Assembly: GCA_003153435.1 (NCBI GenBank)
Contig: PLYR01000077.1
Span: 62,942-97,135 of the forward strand
Direction: 5' to 3'
Source of the DNA: Bacteroidota bacterium
GTDB taxonomy: Bacteria > Bacteroidota > Bacteroidia > Palsa-965
Length of the DNA: 34,194 bases
Part shown: piece after piece, positions 1,440 to 12,753 of the stretch
How positions within the stretch are numbered: the first letter of the stretch is position 1
How the letters are laid out: each line of letters begins with the position of its first letter
Program-made: the position numbers and the translations under genes
Notes under the pieces: model-generated
What the model was told of the DNA's origin: nothing
Databases searched by the model: none
The model's input: only the letters and a program-made list of their open reading frames with translations

Positions 1440-2561
1440 CTATTTCAAGGAATTCATAATTCTTAAAAAACGTTTCGCAACTGCTACCGGGCTATAGTGC
1501 TCGGAGACCCAGCTTCTACCCTTTTTCCCAATCTCGAGAATTTCCTGCCGGCTCAAAGCGAGAAGCTTAGTGGCACTCTGTTCAAATTCAAACCTTTTAA
1601 CTCCCCAATAGTGGACTCCTTCCAGAGGCATTTCAGGTAATACCCAGTTCCAGTCTTCGAAATTCATATGAATAGGGCAAGTGTTTGAGTACAAAGCCTC
1701 CCACCATCTCCAACTGTCAAATTGCGAAATCAAATAACAATCAGAAGTATCACGCCTCGTCTTTTCCAGAATGTTTTTTTTCAGTTCATAATAGATTTGC
1801 AACTGTCTGTTTATCCTGTTAGTAGCAAAAGGTTTGATATGGAGGAACCCTCCGAAAGCGTATGTAAGGAGCGATTCGTTTAACAATTCATAATACCGGG
1901 GGTCATGTCTTTTATTCGTCTGAGTCCAGAAAGACAAATCTCTTTTCGAAAATAATTCAAGGGCTTGCTCCGATGTATCCGTAGTATAATTGCAAATTTT
2001 ATATTTATTCTTCATTGGAGGAGTAAATTGTTCCAATGCGAGATCTCGTATGCTCTGATTCACACGGTAATTAATCAGGACTTGATCTTTCACCATAGAG
2101 TCTTGAGTTTTATCAATTTGATTCATTATCCGCTTTGACAAACCAAAGGCCCAGGGTTGAATATTGGGATGATAAGCAGAATATTTTATTTTTTTGTTAA
2201 AGTGGGATCTGAGAATTAAATTGAACCGACTATAAATATTCCTGCTACTATAAGCACTGTACAGCCCATCTTCTACATCAATCAATATGTTTATTAAAGA
2301 ATAATCTACCCGTGTGCTCTCTTCCGGAAAGTGAATGAGGTAGTACTGATTATAGATATGAATGTCAGCCTTGAAGTCATGCGGGGCTTTCTGAATCAGA
2401 TATTTACCAGTGTCCAGGTCAAACCAATACTCGTTTACCCCGTAAAATTCCACGCCTAGCTCCTGAAAACCTTCAGCCAGACAGATGCTTTCATGCTGAT
2501 ATTCTCCCTTGTAATAATTAGGAGGAATAATGAAAAATTTTACACGGGGTAGTTCCTTCAT
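1440..2561 (-). CDS. exostosin-like glycosyltransferase family protein
   Basis: This 373-residue protein has no signal peptide or membrane segment and is probably cytoplasmic. The clearest clue is near residues 280-330: SWRWWEALYSNTCPIHM followed by LPEMPLEGVHYWG. That matches the pattern in exostosin (GT47-like) and CgeB-like glycosyltransferases, where an Arg/Glu pair in an EAL-x2-G/N-C-P motif binds the sugar nucleotide. The C-terminus ends in a WVSEHYSPVAVAKRF helix, as is common in GT-B enzymes. It is the last gene of the minus-strand operon and starts 6 bases after the GT2 stop. The context suggests transfer of a sugar during surface polysaccharide synthesis. Donor and acceptor cannot be read from the sequence. 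It could instead be a non-catalytic relative, because the N-terminal half has no motif I recognise. Confidence 0.6.
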   Translation of the reverse strand: MKELPRVKFFIIPPNYYKGEYQHESICLAEGFQELGVEFYGVNEYWFDLDTGKYLIQKAPHDFKADIHIYNQYYLIHFPEESTRVDYSLINILIDVEDGLYSAYSSRNIYSRFNLILRSHFNKKIKYSAYHPNIQPWAFGLSKRIMNQIDKTQDSMVKDQVLINYRVNQSIRDLALEQFTPPMKNKYKICNYTTDTSEQALELFSKRDLSFWTQTNKRHDPRYYELLNESLLTYAFGGFLHIKPFATNRINRQLQIYYELKKNILEKTRRDTSDCYLISQFDSWRWWEALYSNTCPIHMNFEDWNWVLPEMPLEGVHYWGVKRFEFEQSATKLLALSRQEILEIGKKGRSWVSEHYSPVAVAKRFLRIMNSLK

Positions 2562-2567
2562 CTGAAA

Positions 2568-3617
2568 TCATACTGGTTCGCCCAACGCAGGCGAAAGATG
2601 TTTTTTCTTAATTTTCCACTCATAGGCTCGGTAAAGACGGAAATGGAGCCAGCTTTTACCCCTTACATATTTATTCAAGAAAATGAGATGAGCTTTTTCC
2701 TCTTCTTCCAATTTAATCCCCTCTTCACTAATTTCAGCAAGAAAAATCTTTGCGAATTTAAAATCTGACTTCTTATATATCATACCTGATTTACGAAGGC
2801 AAAACCAGAACAGAAGATGATTCACCACCTCATTTTCAACTTCCAACAGGCAATCTGAAGGAAACTCAATTTCCAATGATTCACGTTTAAGATCAAGTAC
2901 ATGGAGGTATTTTGTCATTCCTTTCAATTTCGCAATTGAGTACAACAAGGCCGAATCTTCTGATGTAAACTTATCAATGGTGGTAATCGTTTTTGAGTGA
3001 GGATGTAATCGGTAATTTGCTATCACTTGATCATTTTCCTCAAAAATCCGTTCTATACCGAAAAGAAAAAGGAACCTCAATAGCCAGTCGACATCCATTA
3101 CATAATGAAGCTTTTCATTTAGCGGTCCCATCTTAACCAGGGCCTCGTGCCCATAAAAGATAGAGGGCTGTTTGATGACCCGCTTTCGAAGGGTATTCTC
3201 AAGAGTTCCCTGCAACAAGGGCTCGTAAAATTCCAGCGTTTCTTTACCCTCAAACTTTCTAAGTCCGCCCGAATAACAAAGTAATCCCGGATGGTCTTTG
3301 AATGCATTCCCAACCCTTTCAAGGCTGCCTGGCGCTAAAGTATCGTCACTGCATAACCAGTTGAAGACTTCCCCTGAACTCTTTGAAAGTCCTTTATTAA
3401 TGGCATGACTTTGCCCTTTATCCGTTTCACTTACCCAGTATTTGAGTTGCTTCTCGTATTTTTTGATTATTTCAACGGAATTATCCTTACTCCCACCATC
3501 AATAATTATCAGTTCAAGATTCCGGTAGCCTTGATTCAATACTGAAAGAATCGTTTCCTCCAAAAATGCTCCTTGATTAAAACTGGGTATTACGATAGTT
3601 ATCTTAGGCAATTCCAT
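2568..3617 (-). CDS. family 2 glycosyltransferase
   Basis: A 349-residue GT-A enzyme. The N-terminus has the classic GT2 start, ITIVIPSFNQGAFLEETI, then LELIIIDGGSKDNS at about residues 35-48. The SDD metal/nucleotide-sugar motif lies in NWLCSDDTLAPGS near residue 90. A later VMDVDWLLRF segment fits the acceptor/catalytic region. GT2 enzymes move a sugar from a nucleotide-sugar to a growing glycan on the cytoplasmic face of the inner membrane. The C-terminal 130 residues are charged and lack membrane helices, so it is not a processive synthase. Its start codon shares one base with the stop of the upstream GT4 gene (TGATG), which indicates translational coupling. The sugar specificity is unknown. 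Confidence 0.9.
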   Translation of the reverse strand: MELPKITIVIPSFNQGAFLEETILSVLNQGYRNLELIIIDGGSKDNSVEIIKKYEKQLKYWVSETDKGQSHAINKGLSKSSGEVFNWLCSDDTLAPGSLERVGNAFKDHPGLLCYSGGLRKFEGKETLEFYEPLLQGTLENTLRKRVIKQPSIFYGHEALVKMGPLNEKLHYVMDVDWLLRFLFLFGIERIFEENDQVIANYRLHPHSKTITTIDKFTSEDSALLYSIAKLKGMTKYLHVLDLKRESLEIEFPSDCLLEVENEVVNHLLFWFCLRKSGMIYKKSDFKFAKIFLAEISEEGIKLEEEEKAHLIFLNKYVRGKSWLHFRLYRAYEWKIKKKHLSPALGEPV

Positions 3618-4777
3618 CAGTTACAGGGAGTAGTATTAAGTATATCCAAAAAATCAGTCGCGAATTTTCTGATGTTAAGTTGATAATCACTCTTTTTCTT
3701 CTCTATCGGAATATTCCAGATTTCAACCATTCTTTGGGCAAGCTCTGTTTCCTTGTGAGGGTCGAAGAAAGAAACATTTTCAACCATTTGCTCCCGGTGA
3801 ACCGGTATATCCGAAAGGATCACATATTGATTCATGGCTTTGGCATCTTCTACCACCGTACTCCAACCTTCGAATAGAGAGGGTTGAATGACAGCTAAGG
3901 AGCCTTCCATAAGCTTAAGTTGCTCCTTTCTGTCAATGAAACCTAGAAACCGAATATTTGATTCAATACTTAACTCCGAAGCCATAGCCTTAAGCTGGGC
4001 AAAATATTCAGGATTCCGGGGATCATTCTCTTTTCCAGTAAAAACGACAAGCATGTTCATTCCTTTTCTCTTCAGCTCCCCTAAAGCTTTTAGGACAAGG
4101 ACTTGATTTTTATGAATCCAGAATTGATTCGGACAGAAAAAGTAAGAACCATCAATTCCAAACTTGGCATTTAACGTCTTTTTATCGAGGGATTGATAAT
4201 CAGGATGAGAAACCGCAAAACGCATCACATAGGTCTTTCTGTCTTTTTGATTTATCGGATAAAATTTATAGAAATCGTTCCGGGAATCATCACTGCTGAA
4301 TACAACCGGATAAGAGCTTTCCGCAATTTGCAGATTGTTCTGAATTCGAGCATCCTTTTCAGAGCTACTGAAAAATTGGGGGTAATAATTTACCTGAAAA
4401 TCTGGTATCCAATATAACCGCTTCGTGATGGAACTTATCGAGTAGGAATTGTAGAAAGGGAATACAAAATCAAACTGATCATCTTTGTATTTCTTGTTGA
4501 TCCAATTTTTCCCTGTGAGGGTCCTGGAAAATTTATTAATGATTCTATCTGTAAATGAATAATGCACAACCTCCTGCAACTGTTCCAGATAAGGGTATCC
4601 GGTTCCCTTCATCATCCCAAACTCTTCGGGTGTATTGGTGAGAATAATTAATACAGGTTGTTGATCATCTGGCAATGTACAAAGGGCAGATACCAGATTC
4701 AGCATATAGTAAGTACCCCCAATCCATTGGGGATTATTCCCAAATAATAGTCCTACCCTCCGCCGTTTTGTAACCAC
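3617..4777 (-). CDS. family 4 (GT-B) glycosyltransferase
   Basis: A 386-residue GT-B fold enzyme. The N-terminal Rossmann half opens with RRVGLLFGNNPQWIGGTYYM, the glycine-rich acceptor side of GT4 enzymes. The C-terminal donor half contains FFCPNQFWIHKNQ at about residue 213, then VVFTGKENDPRNP, IRFLGFIDRKEQL and SLFEGWSTVVEDAKAM. The last carries the EX7E motif that binds the nucleotide sugar. There is no signal peptide, so the enzyme is cytoplasmic or peripheral to the membrane. It overlaps the upstream epimerase gene by 25 bases and the downstream GT2 gene by 1 base, so the three are surely co-transcribed. It probably adds one sugar of a surface polysaccharide repeat unit. Which sugar cannot be told. 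Confidence 0.9.
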   Translation of the reverse strand: MVTKRRRVGLLFGNNPQWIGGTYYMLNLVSALCTLPDDQQPVLIILTNTPEEFGMMKGTGYPYLEQLQEVVHYSFTDRIINKFSRTLTGKNWINKKYKDDQFDFVFPFYNSYSISSITKRLYWIPDFQVNYYPQFFSSSEKDARIQNNLQIAESSYPVVFSSDDSRNDFYKFYPINQKDRKTYVMRFAVSHPDYQSLDKKTLNAKFGIDGSYFFCPNQFWIHKNQVLVLKALGELKRKGMNMLVVFTGKENDPRNPEYFAQLKAMASELSIESNIRFLGFIDRKEQLKLMEGSLAVIQPSLFEGWSTVVEDAKAMNQYVILSDIPVHREQMVENVSFFDPHKETELAQRMVEIWNIPIEKKKSDYQLNIRKFATDFLDILNTTPCN

Positions 4778-5655
4778 GATGTGTATTTTTTAATTCCTTC
4801 TTCAATCTTTACATTTGTTTGAAAACCGAATGATTTCAGGATCTCTATATTCGCTCTCCAGTGAATCGGATCCCCTTCTTTTGTCAATCCGTTAAAACTG
4901 ATTTTCTTATCAGGTGCAATCTGAGTCATAAATATCTGTGCAACCTCAGCTATGGTTTGTTCCACTCCTGAAGCTACGTTAATGCTTTCACCTCGGAAAT
5001 CTGCTTTCAAAAATATCGTTTCAATGGCATTACAGAGATCGGTGATGAAAATAAAGTCTCGGCTTTCCTTCCCCGTTCCAAATAAGACTACTTCTCCCGG
5101 AGCCAGTGATTTCTTGTATAGATCCCAAAATATTTGTTTTTTCAATCCCGGTCCGTAGGCGGAAAATATCCGGAGACTGGAAGTACTCAATCCATGCTGT
5201 TGATGATAAGACCTCAATAGTACTTCACTCTTCAATTTATTTTCTCCATAAGGAGAAAGAGGATTTAAAGTCGCGTTTTCAGAAACTGGGAGTTCCAAAG
5301 GGTTTCCATAAACAGCGGCACTAGAAAAATTAAGGAACCGGCAGGAGGGGCAACACAGAGCGATGGCCTCTAACATTCTTTCTACATTCTTTACATTCAG
5401 CTGAAAATCCAATGAGGGTTGAGCTAATGAAAACCCAACATTGGCAGAGCCAGAAGCATTTATGCAGGCATTAAATTTTGCAGACTTAAAAACACCTGTA
5501 TAATCAGGATTGATTGGGTCAAGCCGAATATAGGGTAGTTTAACTGAACAAGAAGGGTGAATGTCGGCACATGTAACTTCATACCCTGAGGCTGCGAAAT
5601 AAAGTGCACAATGCTTTCCGATAAATCCTTCTGACCCGAGAATGAGAATTTTCAT
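4753..5655 (-). CDS. NAD-dependent sugar epimerase/dehydratase (extended SDR)
   Basis: A 300-residue extended short-chain dehydrogenase/reductase. The N-terminal dinucleotide site is MKILILGSEGFIGKHCAL (GxxGxxG). The catalytic region has NFSSAAVYGNP followed by SPYGENKLKSE, giving the Tyr-x3-Lys pair. A later DFIFITDLCNAIETI segment is typical of GalE/RmlB-type enzymes acting on nucleotide sugars. It is the first gene of the four-gene polysaccharide operon and probably supplies an NDP-sugar for the GT4 and GT2 enzymes that follow. Whether it epimerises, dehydrates or reduces is not settled by the motifs. I found no good TAnnTTTG promoter on the minus strand in the 246 bases upstream. An imperfect hairpin lies 7 bases before the start codon. 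Confidence 0.88.
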   Translation of the reverse strand: MKILILGSEGFIGKHCALYFAASGYEVTCADIHPSCSVKLPYIRLDPINPDYTGVFKSAKFNACINASGSANVGFSLAQPSLDFQLNVKNVERMLEAIALCCPSCRFLNFSSAAVYGNPLELPVSENATLNPLSPYGENKLKSEVLLRSYHQQHGLSTSSLRIFSAYGPGLKKQIFWDLYKKSLAPGEVVLFGTGKESRDFIFITDLCNAIETIFLKADFRGESINVASGVEQTIAEVAQIFMTQIAPDKKISFNGLTKEGDPIHWRANIEILKSFGFQTNVKIEEGIKKYTSWLQNGGG

Positions 5656-5901: not shown

Positions 5902-8328
5902 TTACGAGTCTTTCTTTCCGTCCTTTTTACCATAGCTGCCATATCCTCCGTAGCTCCCATAACCTCCATAGCTTCCGTAACCACCATAACTTCCATAATT
6001 TCCATAACCGTATCCAGAACCATACGAGTAACGATTGTAATAGTATCTGGATTTTCTTCTTTGAACTCCATTGAGAATAAACCCGAAGTGACCTAATTTA
6101 TTCAAGGCAACAATCTCATGGGCATTGGCAATGGATTCCTTAAAGGGGAATTTAGTATTAATTACAAATAAAGTCACGTCGGCCGATTTCATTAAGATCA
6201 ATGCATCGGTAATTAATCCGACCGGGGGAGTATCAATGATCAAATACTCATAATGAGCCTTGCCATAAGCAATAATTGAATCCAGTTCTTTTGTTAATAT
6301 AATTTCAGAAGGATTCGGAGGAAGAGGGCCCGACAAGATTGCATCCAGGTTCTCAATGGTGGAGTGTTTGATACATTCTTCAATTGAACTCTTACCAATA
6401 ACAATTGTGCTGACCCCAATGTCTGCTTCAATGTTAAGCCCTCTTTGAACCCTCGGTTTATGAAGGTCCAACTCAAGCACCAGCACCTTCTTTCCAGCCT
6501 TTGCAAGAATTCCGGCGAGGTTAAGCGAACAAAATGTTTTCCCTTCTCCAGGGTTATTGGAAGTAACCAAGATTGTCCTACATCCCTCTTTATTAGACAT
6601 GTATTGCAGGTTTGTACGGATAGTCCTGAATGACTCTGCAACTGGAGATTTAGGCTCCGATTCGGCAGCAATTATCAATTCTTTTATAGTCGGGACAAAA
6701 ATCACCTCCCCAATAACCGGGAGATGCGTTTTAAGTTTGAGCTCATCCACACTTTCTATTCTGGAAAAGAATGTGTGCCTGACCAGAATAATAATGATAC
6801 TTAATCCGAGGCCAAAAAATATAAAACTTGTGATTACTTTTTTTCGGTCTGGCTTGACTATTCCAATAGAACGTGCCAATTCGATAACTTTTGACTCCGG
6901 TACGATCGACGCCCGTGCAATAACAGTATTCGATCTCTTTTGAAGGAGGAAAAGATACATTGTTTCATTGATATTCAATCTACGTTGAATATTAAGAAGG
7001 CCCCTCTGTTTCACAGGTAACCCTTTAATATCTCCAATATAGTTTTGGATCTCAATTTCAAAACCAGCTATTTTTTGTTTCAGGGCAACTCTTAAATTTC
7101 CAATGTACACTAACAGGTTTTTCCTGAGCTCATCAATCCGTTTATCTAATTCCTTTATGATCGGACTCCCTTCCTTTGCTGTAGAAAGTGCAGCATTTCT
7201 AGAGATTTGGAGCGTGTATAATTCATTCACAGCTTTTTGCAAAAAACCATCATCTTTAACAATGTAAACTGATGGAGGCAAAAACTCCGGATCCTTATCA
7301 GAAATGATATAATTCTCCAGATCGTCCAGAACAGAAATTTCCAGACCTACATTTACTTTTTGTTCATCAAACTTTCCTAGTTTATTGAAATACTCATTCC
7401 CCTCCTTATCAAGATCCAAGATAGAATGTTTTTCCTTATACCCTTGCATTGTATCTTCCATACTATTTAACTGACCTGTCACCTCGTTCATCTGGCGGTC
7501 AATGTACCTCATCGTGTTTGAATTAATCTCATAGCGAGACTTCATTGTATTTTCAATATATACTTTGGATAGCGTGTCAAGGAACACAACGGCCCGTTCC
7601 GGAATCACATCTTGCAATGTTACTTCCAATATATTCGTATAATCAGGATTTTTAACTTCCATATTATTCTGGAATGTATATACTCTCGAAGCTGGATTGT
7701 GGATCTGAACCAGGTAGTTCATTTGCTTTAATCCGGAAATAGAAGAACCCCGGAAATTACCTGATTTATTAATGACAAAGCGAAAATCTGCCTCGGTAAA
7801 TTCTTTATCAAAATATCCAATTCTGCTCTCTTCTTTCCCATACTTCAGGTAATTTATCCGGAAGGAGTTTTCATCCAGGATTTTAAATTTCATTTCCTGT
7901 TCAAACAAGGCTGGATTAATATTAAGAACTTTCACCCTGAAAGGCATCCCTGAAAAGACCTCCACGGTTTTTATCCGTCCGACAAGGAAATAGGATACGT
8001 TTAAATCAAGCCGGTCAAGAGCTGCCTTCACCAAGTCATAAGATCGGATGACTCTCGTTTCATTCGCATTATCAACATATGTCTGCGCGCCTCCATATGC
8101 CCCAAAACTTTCATTGATAATACTGGATGGGTTTACATCATTTTGAGATTTGATAAGAATTTGAGTCCTTGCAGCAAAGATATCAGTCAATTTATAGGCA
8201 TAGATATAACCAGCCCCGAAGAAAACAGCCATGGAAATAATAGGGATATACCAGTTTTTGGCGATGAGTCGCCAAATTCCTCGAATATCACTTAGGTTTA
8301 TTATTCCTGTGTTTTTTGAAGTGGCCAA
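5902..8328 (-). CDS. Wzc-like polysaccharide co-polymerase / BY-family tyrosine kinase
   Basis: This 808-residue inner-membrane protein combines a chain-length determinant with a bacterial tyrosine kinase, controlling polymerisation and export of surface polysaccharide. A first membrane helix lies at about residues 22-43, followed by a long periplasmic region with a coiled-coil/GNVR-type part, and a second helix at about 496-514. The cytoplasmic kinase domain has Walker A NNPGEGKTF (Lys597), Walker A' LELDLHKPR (about 616-624) and Walker B LIIDTPPVG (Asp699). The C-terminal 50 residues are the autophosphorylation tail, with 15 tyrosines in Gly/Ser/Tyr repeats. The gene lies between the glycosyltransferase operon and the divergent exosortase cassette. 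No Wza-type exporter, flippase or polymerase gene is in the window, so the rest of the pathway is elsewhere. Confidence 0.95.
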   Translation of the reverse strand: MATSKNTGIINLSDIRGIWRLIAKNWYIPIISMAVFFGAGYIYAYKLTDIFAARTQILIKSQNDVNPSSIINESFGAYGGAQTYVDNANETRVIRSYDLVKAALDRLDLNVSYFLVGRIKTVEVFSGMPFRVKVLNINPALFEQEMKFKILDENSFRINYLKYGKEESRIGYFDKEFTEADFRFVINKSGNFRGSSISGLKQMNYLVQIHNPASRVYTFQNNMEVKNPDYTNILEVTLQDVIPERAVVFLDTLSKVYIENTMKSRYEINSNTMRYIDRQMNEVTGQLNSMEDTMQGYKEKHSILDLDKEGNEYFNKLGKFDEQKVNVGLEISVLDDLENYIISDKDPEFLPPSVYIVKDDGFLQKAVNELYTLQISRNAALSTAKEGSPIIKELDKRIDELRKNLLVYIGNLRVALKQKIAGFEIEIQNYIGDIKGLPVKQRGLLNIQRRLNINETMYLFLLQKRSNTVIARASIVPESKVIELARSIGIVKPDRKKVITSFIFFGLGLSIIIILVRHTFFSRIESVDELKLKTHLPVIGEVIFVPTIKELIIAAESEPKSPVAESFRTIRTNLQYMSNKEGCRTILVTSNNPGEGKTFCSLNLAGILAKAGKKVLVLELDLHKPRVQRGLNIEADIGVSTIVIGKSSIEECIKHSTIENLDAILSGPLPPNPSEIILTKELDSIIAYGKAHYEYLIIDTPPVGLITDALILMKSADVTLFVINTKFPFKESIANAHEIVALNKLGHFGFILNGVQRRKSRYYYNRYSYGSGYGYGNYGSYGGYGSYGGYGSYGGYGSYGKKDGKKDS
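5929..6045 (-). repeat. Tyr/Gly repeat tail of the Wzc-like kinase
   Basis: The last residues of the kinase read as a tandem repeat of the unit GSYGGY (three full copies and a partial one), preceded by a looser YSYGSGYGYGNYG stretch and a YYY cluster. The unit is 18 bases, but the copies use different glycine and serine codons. The repeat is therefore conserved in protein rather than being a fresh DNA duplication. Tyrosine clusters at this position are the autophosphorylation sites of the kinase family; the regular glycine-rich form is unusual. Confidence 0.9.
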
Positions 8329-8463: not shown

Positions 8464-8494
8464 TTTGGATTCATTTTATTAATACTTATCTTTG
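8464..8494 (+). promoter_or_regulatory. Bacteroidota-type promoter of the exosortase cassette
   Basis: TTTG at 8464-8467 is followed after exactly 19 bases by TATCTTTG at 8487-8494. This matches the Bacteroidota sigma-factor consensus (TTTG, N19, TAnnTTTG) in both elements and in spacing. The predicted transcript begins near 8500, about a dozen bases before the ATG at 8512, so the leader is very short. It is divergent from the kinase promoter in the same 183-base gap. Confidence 0.75.
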
Positions 8495-8511
8495 CTGTAA
8501 GAAATAACGGA

Positions 8512-8730
8512 ATGAAATACCTACAAAAAATCTACATTCTTATTTTCCTGCTTTTACTGTCACCAATTGATGTCATACTGGCTGCTGGCCCCCCTCCACC
8601 CCCACCAAATCCTGGGTGCTGGCCTCCTCCCTGTGCCCCTATTGACGGAGGTGTTTGTTTCCTGATCCTTGCTGGTCTTCTGCTGGGTGCATTTAAAATT
8701 TACACTTCTTTCAAGCGCAAAACAGTTTAA
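8512..8730 (+). CDS. 72-residue Pro-rich exosortase substrate with PID-type C-terminal sorting signal
   Basis: A tiny secreted protein, probably the dedicated substrate of the exosortase that follows 5 bases later. Residues 1-25 are a signal peptide (two Lys, an ILIFLLLL core, LAAG cleavage region). Residues 27-41 are proline-rich (six Pro, then PNPGCWPPPC). Residues 43-72 form a tripartite sorting tail: the motif PIDGG, a hydrophobic helix CFLILAGLLLGAF, and a basic end with KRK. This matches from memory the small Bacteroidota proteins called PID-CTERM. If both signals are removed, a mature piece of only about 20 residues remains, with Cys36 and Cys41. PID also occurs inside the signal peptide (residues 18-20). 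The start is supported by the promoter at 8464-8494; no Shine-Dalgarno is evident. Confidence 0.8.
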   Translation: MKYLQKIYILIFLLLLSPIDVILAAGPPPPPPNPGCWPPPCAPIDGGVCFLILAGLLLGAFKIYTSFKRKTV

Positions 8731-8735
8731 ATCTC

Positions 8736-9278
8736 GTGGGGATATCTGGCTTTCTGAAAAACCCACTCTTCAGGTTCCTTCTTTTATTTATTTTCCTCTA
8801 TTCTTCATGGTACGTTTTGTACGAATTGATTATTAATCCGAATGGAAAGCTTGATTCTTTCGTGATCAATGCCACTGTAGGCGTAACCGATCTTCTGCTG
8901 AAATTATTAGGATTTGTTACATTTACTACCCATTCAGAAACCATACGTACCATCGGTATTGATGGGACTCACGGTCTATGGATTGGGGATCCCTGTGACG
9001 GGATTACCCTGTTTGCACTCTTCACAGCCTTTATTGTCTCATTTCCGGGACCATGGAAGAAAAAGTGCTGGTTCATTCCGTTAGGGATTATTGGCATTTT
9101 CCTTATTAACGTTTTGAGAATCACCTGTTTATGCATAATTGTTAAATTCAAACCTTCCCTTCTTTCACTGAATCATGACTATATTTTCAAAATAATCGTC
9201 TATTCTTTCATTTTTGGATTATGGATCCTATGGGTAAATAGCTTTTCTTCAAACAATGCGTTAAAGTCGAAGAAATGA
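8736..9278 (+). CDS. exosortase family transpeptidase (XrtX-like)
   Basis: A 180-residue polytopic inner-membrane protein of the exosortase/archaeosortase family, which cleaves C-terminal sorting signals on the periplasmic side and joins the target to an acceptor. The three catalytic positions are visible: Cys87 in GDPCDGITLF, Arg128 in INVLRITCL and His147 in LNHDYIFK. Hydrophobic segments lie at about residues 10-30, 88-103, 113-136 and 150-168. The start is GTG, 5 bases after the substrate gene; no in-frame ATG precedes the first helix. The size and partner gene fit the Bacteroidota type I recall as XrtX better than the larger EpsH/XrtA enzymes, but the subtype is from memory. It lies beside a Wzc-like kinase, consistent with the known link between exosortases and exopolysaccharide. 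Confidence 0.85.
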   Translation: MGISGFLKNPLFRFLLLFIFLYSSWYVLYELIINPNGKLDSFVINATVGVTDLLLKLLGFVTFTTHSETIRTIGIDGTHGLWIGDPCDGITLFALFTAFIVSFPGPWKKKCWFIPLGIIGIFLINVLRITCLCIIVKFKPSLLSLNHDYIFKIIVYSFIFGLWILWVNSFSSNNALKSKK

Positions 9279-9754
9279 AAGGATTTCGAACCATTATTGC
9301 ACTCTTTCTAGTCATTTTATTTCTGGTCTTTGGCTTCGTCCGGGATTTCGTCTTCATAAACCTGAATGAACAAGCAAGCGTTACCTATTATCATTCCGTA
9401 GAGTCTCATGTCAGTGCTTCCTTCCATTTTCTTTCTGCCTATACATATCCACAACTTTTTGCTCTAAAATGGATACTCACCATTACGTTCGCCCTGTTTT
9501 TCATGGGCCTTACAATAGCCATTGTAAGATTAATTTATAAGGAAAAAACATTTCTGCACCTAACTCTGCTCGCCTACGGGGTCTTGTTTCTCCTGGCTGC
9601 TATTTTTTTTATTCTCGGACAGATTAAACCACTAAACTTAAATGGGTATGTCATTTCCCGTTTTTTCATGGGTATCGCTGAGGGCCCTGTCGTCCTGATG
9701 GTCTTACTACCTGCGTTTAAGCTTTCCATGTGGAGAAAGTCATTGCAGAAATAA
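9275..9754 (+). CDS. exosortase-associated four-helix membrane protein
   Basis: A 159-residue membrane protein with four predicted helices (about residues 5-24, 65-87, 93-115 and 128-149) and a periplasmic loop of about 40 residues between the first two. I see no catalytic motif. Its ATG overlaps the exosortase stop by four bases (ATGA), so the two are translationally coupled and probably act together. Small membrane proteins directly after the enzyme are known for Bacteroidota exosortase types F and X, and this gene occupies that position. It may hold the enzyme or its acceptor in place; that is inference. It is the last gene of the cassette, ending 57 bases before glyA, which has its own -7 element. 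Confidence 0.7.
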   Translation: MKGFRTIIALFLVILFLVFGFVRDFVFINLNEQASVTYYHSVESHVSASFHFLSAYTYPQLFALKWILTITFALFFMGLTIAIVRLIYKEKTFLHLTLLAYGVLFLLAAIFFILGQIKPLNLNGYVISRFFMGIAEGPVVLMVLLPAFKLSMWRKSLQK

Positions 9755-9810: not shown

Positions 9811-11088
9811 ATGAGCAAGAAAGACACAGTCATTTTTAATTTGATTAAAGAAGAACAACATCGCCAGCAGTTTGGGATCGAACTCATTGCTTCTGAAAAT
9901 TTTGTAAGCGATCAGGTTATGCAGGCGATGGGGTCTTGTCTGACAAATAAATATGCTGAAGGACTTCCAGGCAAACGATATTATGGAGGGTGTGAAGTAG
10001 TAGATAAAGTAGAACAATTAGCCATAGACAGAGCCAAAGTACTGTTCAATGCAGAATGGGTTAACGTGCAACCACATAGTGGGGCTCAGGCCAATTTTGC
10101 AGTAATGCTGGGCTGTCTAAAACCTGGCGATACTATATTAGGATTTGATCTAAGCCACGGAGGCCACCTGACTCATGGTTCTCCTGTCAATTTTAGCGGA
10201 AAACTTTACCATCCAACTTTTTATGGAGTAGACCAAAAGACTGGCAGGGTTGATATGAAGAAAGTCGAAGAAGTTGCGCTCAGGGAAAAACCAAAAATGA
10301 TTATTTGTGGTGCTTCCTCCTATTCAAGGGACTGGGACTATAAAGGATTTCGTAAAATTGCGGATAAGGTAGGAGCCTTGTTGCTGGCAGATATTTCACA
10401 TCCTGCTGGGCTGATTGCAAGGGGAATTCTGAACGATCCTCTTCCTCATTGTCACATTGTTACCACGACAACTCACAAAACACTCAGGGGACCTCGCGGA
10501 GGAATGATCATGATGGGGAAAGACTTCGTGAACCCATGGGGACAAACGACTCCTAAAGGTGAGCCTAAGATGATGTCTGCAGTTCTGGACGGAGCTGTAT
10601 TCCCTGGCACGCAAGGAGGGCCACTGGAACATGTAATTGCAGCCAAAGCTGTAGCATTCGGTGAGGCGCTCGAGGAAAGTTTCATGAAATATGTCATCCA
10701 GGTTCAAAAGAATGCCAAAGTAATGGCGGATTGCTTTATGAAAAAGGGTTATGAGGTCATCTCAGGAGGAACTGACAATCATTGTATGTTGATTGATCTT
10801 CGATCAAAGAATTTGTCTGGAAAATTCGCAGAAAACATTCTGGTTAAAGCTGACATTACAGTCAACAAAAACATGGTTCCTTTTGATGACAAATCCCCTT
10901 TTGTTACTTCAGGAATGAGGGTCGGTACTGCTGCAATCACCACCCGTGGAATGAAGGAAAAAAATATTCCAAAAATCGTTGACCTTATTGATCAGGTGCT
11001 TACCTGTGGGGAGGACGAAAAAGTGATAAACGATGTGAAGAAAAAAGTAAATGCAATGATGAAAACATTTAAGATTTTCGCATATTAA
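9811..11088 (+). CDS. glyA: serine hydroxymethyltransferase
   Basis: This PLP enzyme interconverts serine and glycine while loading tetrahydrofolate with a one-carbon unit, in the cytoplasm. At 425 residues it is of full family length. Family landmarks are [11 protein letters not shown] near the N-terminus, [15 protein letters not shown], the SGAQANFAV segment, and the PLP-binding lysine in [15 protein letters not shown] (Lys223). The C-terminal part has [12 protein letters not shown]. The start is the ATG 22 bases after a good -7 element, giving a very short leader. It is transcribed alone: the next gene is convergent and the gap between them holds two hairpins. The identification is firm. 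Confidence 0.97.
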
Positions 11089-11181: not shown

Positions 11182-12753
11182 TCACCTAAATAGTGGCAAC
11201 ATTCTTCCCTCGTGCAATTCGTCTTCGAAAAAATTAATCGCGTTTCTTCGCCATATTTTATTAGCTATCAAATTCAACTGATCTAATACTGGTTTGTCAT
11301 CAACCATGCATTTATCGGCGGACCCAAGCACACTATTTCCGGAAATAATTTCTTCTCCCCTTTCCTTTGCCTCAACCAGAACCTTACTCACAGTCTGGCT
11401 TCCTTTTTTGCATGCATAAAAAAGCAGGTTTCTTCCACTCTCCCCTTCACCCGCAGGCATCAGGCAAAGATCAAAATCAGAATCCAGCAGAGTTCTGAAT
11501 ACCGCTCTCATTCCAGCCCCAGCCTCCCCGGTAATAAATCCAGGTCCATTAATAATTAGCAAACCATCCGGATTAAGCAGGGATTTGATTTCAGAAAACG
11601 CCTCCATTGTAAAACAATGACCTGGAGTTTCTTCTCCTTTGAAGAGATCCAGAATTACAAAATCGTATTTGCTCGTTGTGGTTCTGATAAAATGCCTGGC
11701 ATCATCAATGTGAACTGGAATAGAGGAATTCAGTCCAAAAAATGCATGCGAGACAAATACCATCCGTGCATCCAGTTCGCAAGCTTCAACCTGAAATCCT
11801 TCAGTTTGGAGTTCCTGAGCGAGTATACCTCCTCCAAGCCCACAAAGCAATACTTTTCGGTTCTGCCCGGCTCTTGGAATATGATGGAGGATTTGCGCTA
11901 TATAATTAAAGAGATGCACACTGTCCGGCTGAGTACTTTTACGGGTCTGCCAGATCCGGTTTGCAAATAAGACCCGGTCTTTACCGTTCATAGGAGAGCC
12001 CGTTTTTAACTGTTCAGGATAATCTGCTACAATTAATTGTCCCATCAATCCTTCACTTTGGTAAAGGATATGGATCTTTTCAGTCTTTTGACTTTTCCAT
12101 GTCTTACTCATAACAACTGTTAGCAGAAGAATCAATCCGATCAGGAAATAAAATCTGCTTTTTGCTTTTATTACCAACCAGCAAAGGGGAATAATAGAAA
12201 GTATCATTCCAAGGCAGATACAGGGAAGGCGCAGTCCAAATTCGGGTATCAGCCAAAACCCGGTTATTAAAGTTGAAAATATTCCGCCAATTGTAGATAC
12301 CGCGTAAACCGCCCCTGCCGCTTTCCCAGCTTGACCTTGCTCGGGTTCGAGCGCATGAATAATCAATGGTGCTACCATCCCCATCATAAGAACAGGAGGA
12401 AGCAAAAAAAATGTTGTACATAGGATCACAGAAGGAAGAAGTGCATGCTTACCTGAGAGGGAGAGGATCATCTCTGAGCTAACAGGCATTAACATGATAA
12501 ATAAAGCGGCTATAAGCACCACCACGTAAAGGGTCTTTGGGTTGTTTTTCCTTGATGATATCAGACCACCCAGAAAATAACCGGATGCAAGCCCACCAAG
12601 TGTGACAGCCATCACTGTTGACCAAACATAGAGAGATGAACCGAAATAGGGGGCAAGCATTTTAGCTCCAATCAGCTCCGCAGACATAACCGAAGCCCCT
12701 TCCAAGAGAGAAAGGAGATAAAGCAGGCCAATCTTCGGTTTTAAATCTCCCAA
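11182..12753 (-). CDS. fused membrane / spermidine synthase-like protein
   Basis: A 523-residue protein with a membrane N-terminal half (several helices through about residue 215, with MFS-like glycine and proline patterns) fused to a cytoplasmic spermidine synthase-type methyltransferase fold. The latter shows an S-adenosyl-nucleoside site (LLCGLGGGILAQEL at about 310), an acidic motif II (VEACELDARMV), IDDARHFI and the DLFKGEETPG segment in the polyamine synthase position. Proteins of this architecture are widespread and often called fused MFS/spermidine synthase; true aminopropyltransferase activity has rarely been shown for them. No S-adenosylmethionine decarboxylase gene is nearby, so polyamine synthesis cannot be inferred from context. 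It diverges from the small membrane gene at 12898. Confidence 0.8.
   Translation of the reverse strand: MGDLKPKIGLLYLLSLLEGASVMSAELIGAKMLAPYFGSSLYVWSTVMAVTLGGLASGYFLGGLISSRKNNPKTLYVVVLIAALFIMLMPVSSEMILSLSGKHALLPSVILCTTFFLLPPVLMMGMVAPLIIHALEPEQGQAGKAAGAVYAVSTIGGIFSTLITGFWLIPEFGLRLPCICLGMILSIIPLCWLVIKAKSRFYFLIGLILLLTVVMSKTWKSQKTEKIHILYQSEGLMGQLIVADYPEQLKTGSPMNGKDRVLFANRIWQTRKSTQPDSVHLFNYIAQILHHIPRAGQNRKVLLCGLGGGILAQELQTEGFQVEACELDARMVFVSHAFFGLNSSIPVHIDDARHFIRTTTSKYDFVILDLFKGEETPGHCFTMEAFSEIKSLLNPDGLLIINGPGFITGEAGAGMRAVFRTLLDSDFDLCLMPAGEGESGRNLLFYACKKGSQTVSKVLVEAKERGEEIISGNSVLGSADKCMVDDKPVLDQLNLIANKIWRRNAINFFEDELHEGRMLPLFR

Follow-up and report, generated by a model that had tools for sequence, protein, structure and literature searches.

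What does an exosortase produce when it is encoded in 1.3 kb together with one small candidate substrate and one membrane partner, and is such a one-enzyme, one-substrate arrangement peculiar to the genome in which it was seen? The question is raised by the window, a stretch of 34,194 nucleotides from a Bacteroidota bacterium, in which the genes of the three proteins follow each other closely (Table 1). The gap between the substrate gene and xrtX is 5 bases, while xrtX and the partner gene overlap by 4 bases (ATGA). These rechecked coordinates agree with the first-pass annotation, which had described a small protein with a PIDGG-helix-KRK tail, an exosortase and a membrane partner in 1.3 kb, with gaps of 5 and -4. 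The Cys87, Arg128 and His147 that it had assigned to the exosortase are found at those positions and are invariant in an alignment of 42 XrtX proteins. Its four-helix partner is borne out by a predicted model with four long helices, its strong promoter by an exact match to a predicted Bacteroidota-type pattern, and its divergent Wzc-like kinase by a gene on the opposite strand whose product is above the cut-off of TIGR01007 (154.8 bits; cut-off 108) and below that of the XrtA-associated model TIGR03018 (98.6 bits; cut-off 230.65). The annotation had also called the biochemical role of the short-substrate form undescribed; the form as such is not new, since NCBIfam models for the enzyme, the tail and the partner already exist. 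By its sequence matches, the trio is the catalogued NCBIfam set of PID_CTERM, exosortase X and XrtX-associated membrane protein, a set that is experimentally dark: the literature search found no paper on PID-CTERM, on XrtX in the NCBIfam sense or on CWPPPC, and no experiment on any XrtX system.

Table 1. Positions of the cassette and of the neighbouring polysaccharide genes in the window, with the basis of each assignment.
Feature	Position	Strand	Basis
Bacteroidota-type promoter (predicted)	8464..8494	+	TTTG 8464-8467, 19 bases, TATCTTTG 8487-8494; exact pattern match
Substrate gene, 72 aa	8512..8730	+	signal peptide, Pro-rich core, CWPPPC, PIDGG, hydrophobic helix, KRK tail; NF046080 and family alignment
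CWPPPC motif (residues 36-41), presumed mature peptide	8617..8634	+	43/72 substrates; alignment; DNA word enrichment
PIDGG sorting motif (residues 43-47), presumed cleavage region	8638..8652	+	sequence, NF046080, family alignment
Exosortase X (XrtX), 180 aa, GTG start	8736..9278	+	Cys87/Arg128/His147; NF046081; confident model
XrtX-associated membrane protein, 159 aa, four long helices	9275..9754	+	NF046082; homologue alignment; model
Wzz/Wzc-type polysaccharide chain-length protein and tyrosine autokinase, Tyr/Gly-rich tail	5902..8328	-	TIGR01007, PF02706, PF13614
Polysaccharide genes by the kinase: two glycosyltransferases, NAD-dependent epimerase, one further gene	1440..5655	-	Pfam

The enzyme is a member of NF046081 (exosort_XrtX) by its score of 187.2 bits, which is above the cut-off of 170, and it matches the superfamily signature TIGR04178, while its score with the XrtF model TIGR04128 (84.4 bits) is below the cut-off of 90. 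Its AlphaFold model has a pLDDT of 91. A sequence search of the PDB found no relative of XrtX, and Foldseek searches with the models of XrtX and of the partner found no significant match to either. The model of the partner, which has a mean pLDDT of 95, places the helices at residues 2-39, 58-87, 91-117 and 139-158. The partner scores 52.7 bits with NF046082, for which the cut-off is 75, and the substrate scores 23.3 bits with NF046080 (PID_CTERM; cut-off 26) over residues 43-63. These sub-threshold scores need not count against homology, because the position of the substrate, the architecture of its tail and its alignment with members above the cut-off are consistent with PID_CTERM, because substrates at the same position in sister genomes exceed the PID_CTERM cut-off, and because among the 90 genomes of the class sample with NF046082 matches only 8 are above the cut-off and all 90 have XrtX. 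All 37 aligned partner homologues match NF046082, and 6 of these 37 also match the XrtF-associated protein model TIGR04127 (best E value 1e-5), so the partners of XrtX and XrtF look related.

The predicted promoter, which has the pattern TTTG-N19-TAnnTTTG, ends 17 bases 5' of the substrate ATG. The general pattern TTTG-N-TAnnTTTG has 4 matches in the whole window, compared with 1.16 expected. Of 72 substrate genes, 44 have the TAnnTTTG element in their upstream region, where shuffled sequences give an expectation of 6.3, and it lies most often about 25 bases before the start; the full two-part pattern precedes 6 of the 72 genes (0.17 expected). Scans for the sigma-70 consensus and for terminators gave matches at chance level only, an Rfam search of the window gave no match, and plasmid records contain no relative.

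The host genome, which has 4.02 Mb in 149 contigs and is 98% complete, has one exosortase and one PID-CTERM site, the latter from a whole-genome profile search at E<=10, so that a search for other PIDGG-type tails, proposed with the first-pass annotation, returns this site only. The comparison with relatives was made by whole-genome searches in a class sample of 395 genomes, while a single-protein contig scan gave four loci only; a strong XrtX was defined as a match at E<=1e-40, which selects 123 genomes. PID-CTERM matches are found in 115 of these 123 genomes and in 68 of the 272 others. Some of these other genomes have weaker exosortase matches. The eight apparent cases of XrtX without a substrate resolve into four variant tails and four incomplete or contig-end settings. 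Two genomes (G037, G143) have PVNGG-tailed substrates directly upstream of xrtX and two others (G168 and G234) have PINNG and PLNNG substrates away from xrtX, all of which the PID-CTERM model misses. The remaining four, with XrtX and no substrate seen (G122, G153, G148, G340), are of low completeness or have xrtX near a contig end. After variant tails are counted, a small substrate is present in 119 of the 123 genomes, which answers the proposed check for genomes that keep XrtX without the small gene.

Exactly one PID-CTERM site is found in about 145 of the 183 PID-CTERM genomes, and the rest have 2-5, nearly all in short frames. Judged from these genome sequences, XrtX systems usually pair one enzyme with one small substrate, an arrangement that is not peculiar to the window. 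The claim of a one-enzyme, one-substrate system thus stands for this genome, and as a rule for the class it must be softened: the one-to-one relation is typical and not universal, since about one fifth of the PID-CTERM genomes have 2-5 matches. Five genomes (G058, G188, G240, G385 and G110) have 4-5 PID-CTERM sites each. In the substrates of G058 and G188 that were inspected, a Cys pair is absent, which suggests a second, multi-substrate form of the system. In G188, one PID-CTERM match (C1:2167132-2167203) lies inside an open frame of 995 residues, which is a possible large-protein substrate.

The substrate has, by inspection, an N-terminal signal peptide and a tail made of the PID motif, a hydrophobic helix and a basic end. 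It has no match to PEP-CTERM and none to TIGR04183, the Por secretion C-terminal domain, and the absence of this domain excludes the substrate as cargo of the T9SS. For comparison, 72 substrates were extracted by their tail pattern, by which their length range of 59-97 residues is partly imposed. The family alignment shows a conserved core formed by a Pro/Gly run, CWPPPC, one residue and P(I/V)(D/N)GG; this CWPPPC core lies outside the PID_CTERM model, which spans 25 tail positions. Both cysteines are present at 90% or more in substrate alignment A3. Among all 72 substrates, 43 have CWPPPC, 15 have another close Cys pair and 14 have no Cys pair, so the Cys loop is not essential everywhere. The codons of CWPPPC vary freely between genomes by synonymous changes, which points to selection on the peptide. 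A degenerate DNA word encoding CWPPPC occurs in 76 of the 123 XrtX genomes against 16 of the 272 others, and in 62 genomes it precedes xrtX, in the same orientation, by no more than 350 bases. Since the sample genomes are mutually related, the Fisher values of these genome comparisons overstate significance; the enrichment of the word is in itself large. What is new here, as read from the aligned sequences, is that conservation extends into the mature part of the substrate, and so XrtX probably yields one specific peptide of about 20 residues, a length given by a predicted signal peptidase cut near residue 25 and a predicted XrtX cut near PIDGG.

The neighbourhood of the cassette was compared in 42 XrtX loci, which were picked among the strong XrtX matches of many families and so do not form a random set. 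Gene order in related genomes, a check proposed with the first-pass annotation, widely follows the scheme wzc<>[T9SS cargo]>substrate>xrtX>partner>(glyA), and the unit stays together across the class. The partner gene is directly downstream of xrtX in 37 of the 42 loci and a Wzc homologue is divergently upstream, within about 9 kb, in 32; at some XrtX loci wzc is missing or elsewhere, and the trio is kept without it. In 28 loci, the substrate gene is directly preceded by a large gene of the same orientation, and five representatives of this gene have a T9SS type A sorting domain above its cut-off. The window locus has no such cargo gene, and wzc and the substrate gene are divergent there across a shared intergenic stretch of 183 bases; the closest relative of the cargo gene in the host genome is a weak match on contig 124. 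Beyond wzc, many loci have epimerases and ABC transporter genes of Wzm/Wzt type, names that come from reading of the sequences. The glyA gene directly follows the partner gene in 19 of the 42 loci, and in the window it occupies the region 9811-11088; it is a housekeeping gene, and its steady linkage to xrtX is unexpected.

Some further features of the window concern the neighbouring genes. The tail of the kinase, encoded at 5929-6009, has Gly/Ser/Tyr repeats with YGSYGG units, which in the DNA form arrays of period 9, 18 and 27, and it is a repetitive form of the usual tyrosine cluster. In the polysaccharide cluster, a 373-aa protein (1440-2561, minus strand) matched neither Pfam nor NCBIfam at the thresholds applied and is possibly an unrecognised glycosyltransferase. 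A 523-aa protein (11182-12753, minus strand) resembles a membrane protein in its N-terminal half and has a spermidine synthase domain at residues 289-401.

With moderate confidence, we read the cassette as an XrtX/PID-CTERM sorting unit for a single short substrate, whose peptide would be joined to a lipid or glycan and would serve surface polysaccharide and biofilm. The 72-residue precursor would cross the inner membrane by its signal peptide and be held there by its C-terminal helix, and XrtX and the membrane partner would cut it at or near PIDGG. Cys87 would be the nucleophile, assisted by Arg128 and His147, and the new C-terminus of the substrate, as a thioester, would be passed to a lipid or glycan that offers an amine or hydroxyl group. 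The product would be a Pro/Gly-rich peptide of about 20 residues with CWPPPC, which may form a disulfide loop. The peptide would then be carried to the cell surface, where it may act for the neighbouring Wzc-linked polysaccharide system, or help surface material to attach to it, with a role in biofilm and adhesion as the outcome. The cleavage site, the acceptor, the disulfide and the surface or biofilm role are all inferred, and the glycan or lipid link is drawn from the neighbourhood and the enzyme family. By analogy with archaeosortase A and XrtF, conjugation of the CWPPPC peptide to a lipid or glycan, at a surface served by Wzc, appears the most likely activity of XrtX.

Alternatively, XrtX cleavage could set the peptide free, unattached to any glycan or lipid, and it would then act as a secreted signal or have a structural role. 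Shortness, conservation and a Cys pair, which the mature part shows, are frequent in secreted peptides, and the XrtX neighbourhood has no constant receptor or acceptor gene; however, the well-studied relative archaeosortase A is linked to lipid attachment (PMC7157517) and the conserved neighbours are polysaccharide genes, so free release is unlikely. In a second alternative, the peptide remains in the inner membrane or periplasm and acts there on the Wzc kinase and on polysaccharide export, as a small regulator or an assembly factor that XrtX cleavage switches. The frequent divergent position of wzc and the intergenic region that it shares with the substrate gene in the window are consistent with this role, but a T9SS cargo gene often lies between wzc and the substrate, and the loci with no wzc nearby keep the trio, which makes a regulator of Wzc improbable to a similar degree.

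The cargo gene suggests another function: the conjugate made by XrtX could be an acceptor or anchor for proteins that the T9SS brings to the surface, for example the large cargo whose gene adjoins that of the substrate in many relatives. The host genome has at least 150 T9SS C-terminal domains, and links between T9SS sugar genes and exosortase loci have been noted (PMC7468200). Against such an anchor speaks that the cargo gene is absent from the window locus, its best relative in the host genome being a weak match on another contig. The T9SS also has a sortase of its own, PorU, and we regard the anchor as distinctly improbable. Another explanation concerns the number of substrates: the host genome could encode further XrtX substrates that the tail model misses, so that the short protein is one of several. 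Some genomes do have 2-5 PID-CTERM sites, PVNGG, PINNG and PLNNG tails escape the model, and the assembly is divided into 149 contigs; the single site at E<=10 in a genome that is 98% complete, and the single site of most PID-CTERM genomes of the class, make further substrates very unlikely.

A wider form of the conjugation reading, which we consider doubtful, is that XrtX is a peptide-conjugating machine and not a general sorter. Its sole product, across much of the class, would be a conserved peptide of about 20 residues, made of the Pro/Gly run and CWPPPC and joined by its C-terminus to a glycan or glycolipid, as a cap, primer or cross-linker of the Wzc-dependent polysaccharide and the neighbouring T9SS proteins. 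If true, such a conjugate of glycan or lipid with a ribosomally synthesised peptide would be of an undescribed kind. The acceptor of exosortases has been described as an unidentified compound (PMC7468200). Here the enzyme, the partner and the only known substrate are all found in 1.3 kb. The predicted product, of about 20 residues and fixed sequence, could be read whole by mass spectrometry with its adduct included. The conserved features of the substrate also give a search rule, namely a signal peptide, a P/G run, CWPPPC, P[IVL][DN]xG, a helix and KK, which may help to find substrates of the close relative XrtF.

Among known systems, the NCBIfam set NF046081, NF046080 and NF046082 has the same three families in the same order, with the exosortase of the window above its cut-off, but the substrate and the partner are below the curated cut-offs and the tail model does not include the CWPPPC core. 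The XrtF system (TIGR04128, TIGR04127; Fjoh_1448, Fjoh_1449) has a homologous enzyme, and its partner model is detectable in 6 of the 37 partner homologues, whereas the enzyme of the window is below the XrtF cut-off. In F. johnsoniae, deletions of XrtF and of the adjacent partner reduce colonisation and affect biofilm (PMC10936215; also PMC12188702), and the XrtF substrates were predicted to be unlike PEP-CTERM (PMC10936215). Archaeosortase A, which acts on PGF-CTERM proteins in Haloferax, is of the same superfamily and shares the model of a Cys nucleophile and C-terminal lipid attachment, although it is archaeal, has large substrates that include the S-layer glycoprotein and has a lipid acceptor known in outline. 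A speculative model for this enzyme has a thioester at the active-site Cys, from which the new C-terminus of the substrate is handed to lipid (PMC7157517). The PEP-CTERM/EpsH (XrtA) system shares the tripartite C-terminal tail, the membrane exosortase and the exopolysaccharide neighbourhood, while the system of the window differs from it by its enzyme of 180 aa, by PID in place of PEP and by one short substrate in place of many. The T9SS type A domain and PorU likewise serve to sort proteins to the surface by a C-terminal signal, in the same organisms, with a cargo gene adjacent to the cassette in many relatives; the enzyme is nevertheless a different one, and the signal is a folded domain, whereas the substrate of the window has a membrane-helix tail.
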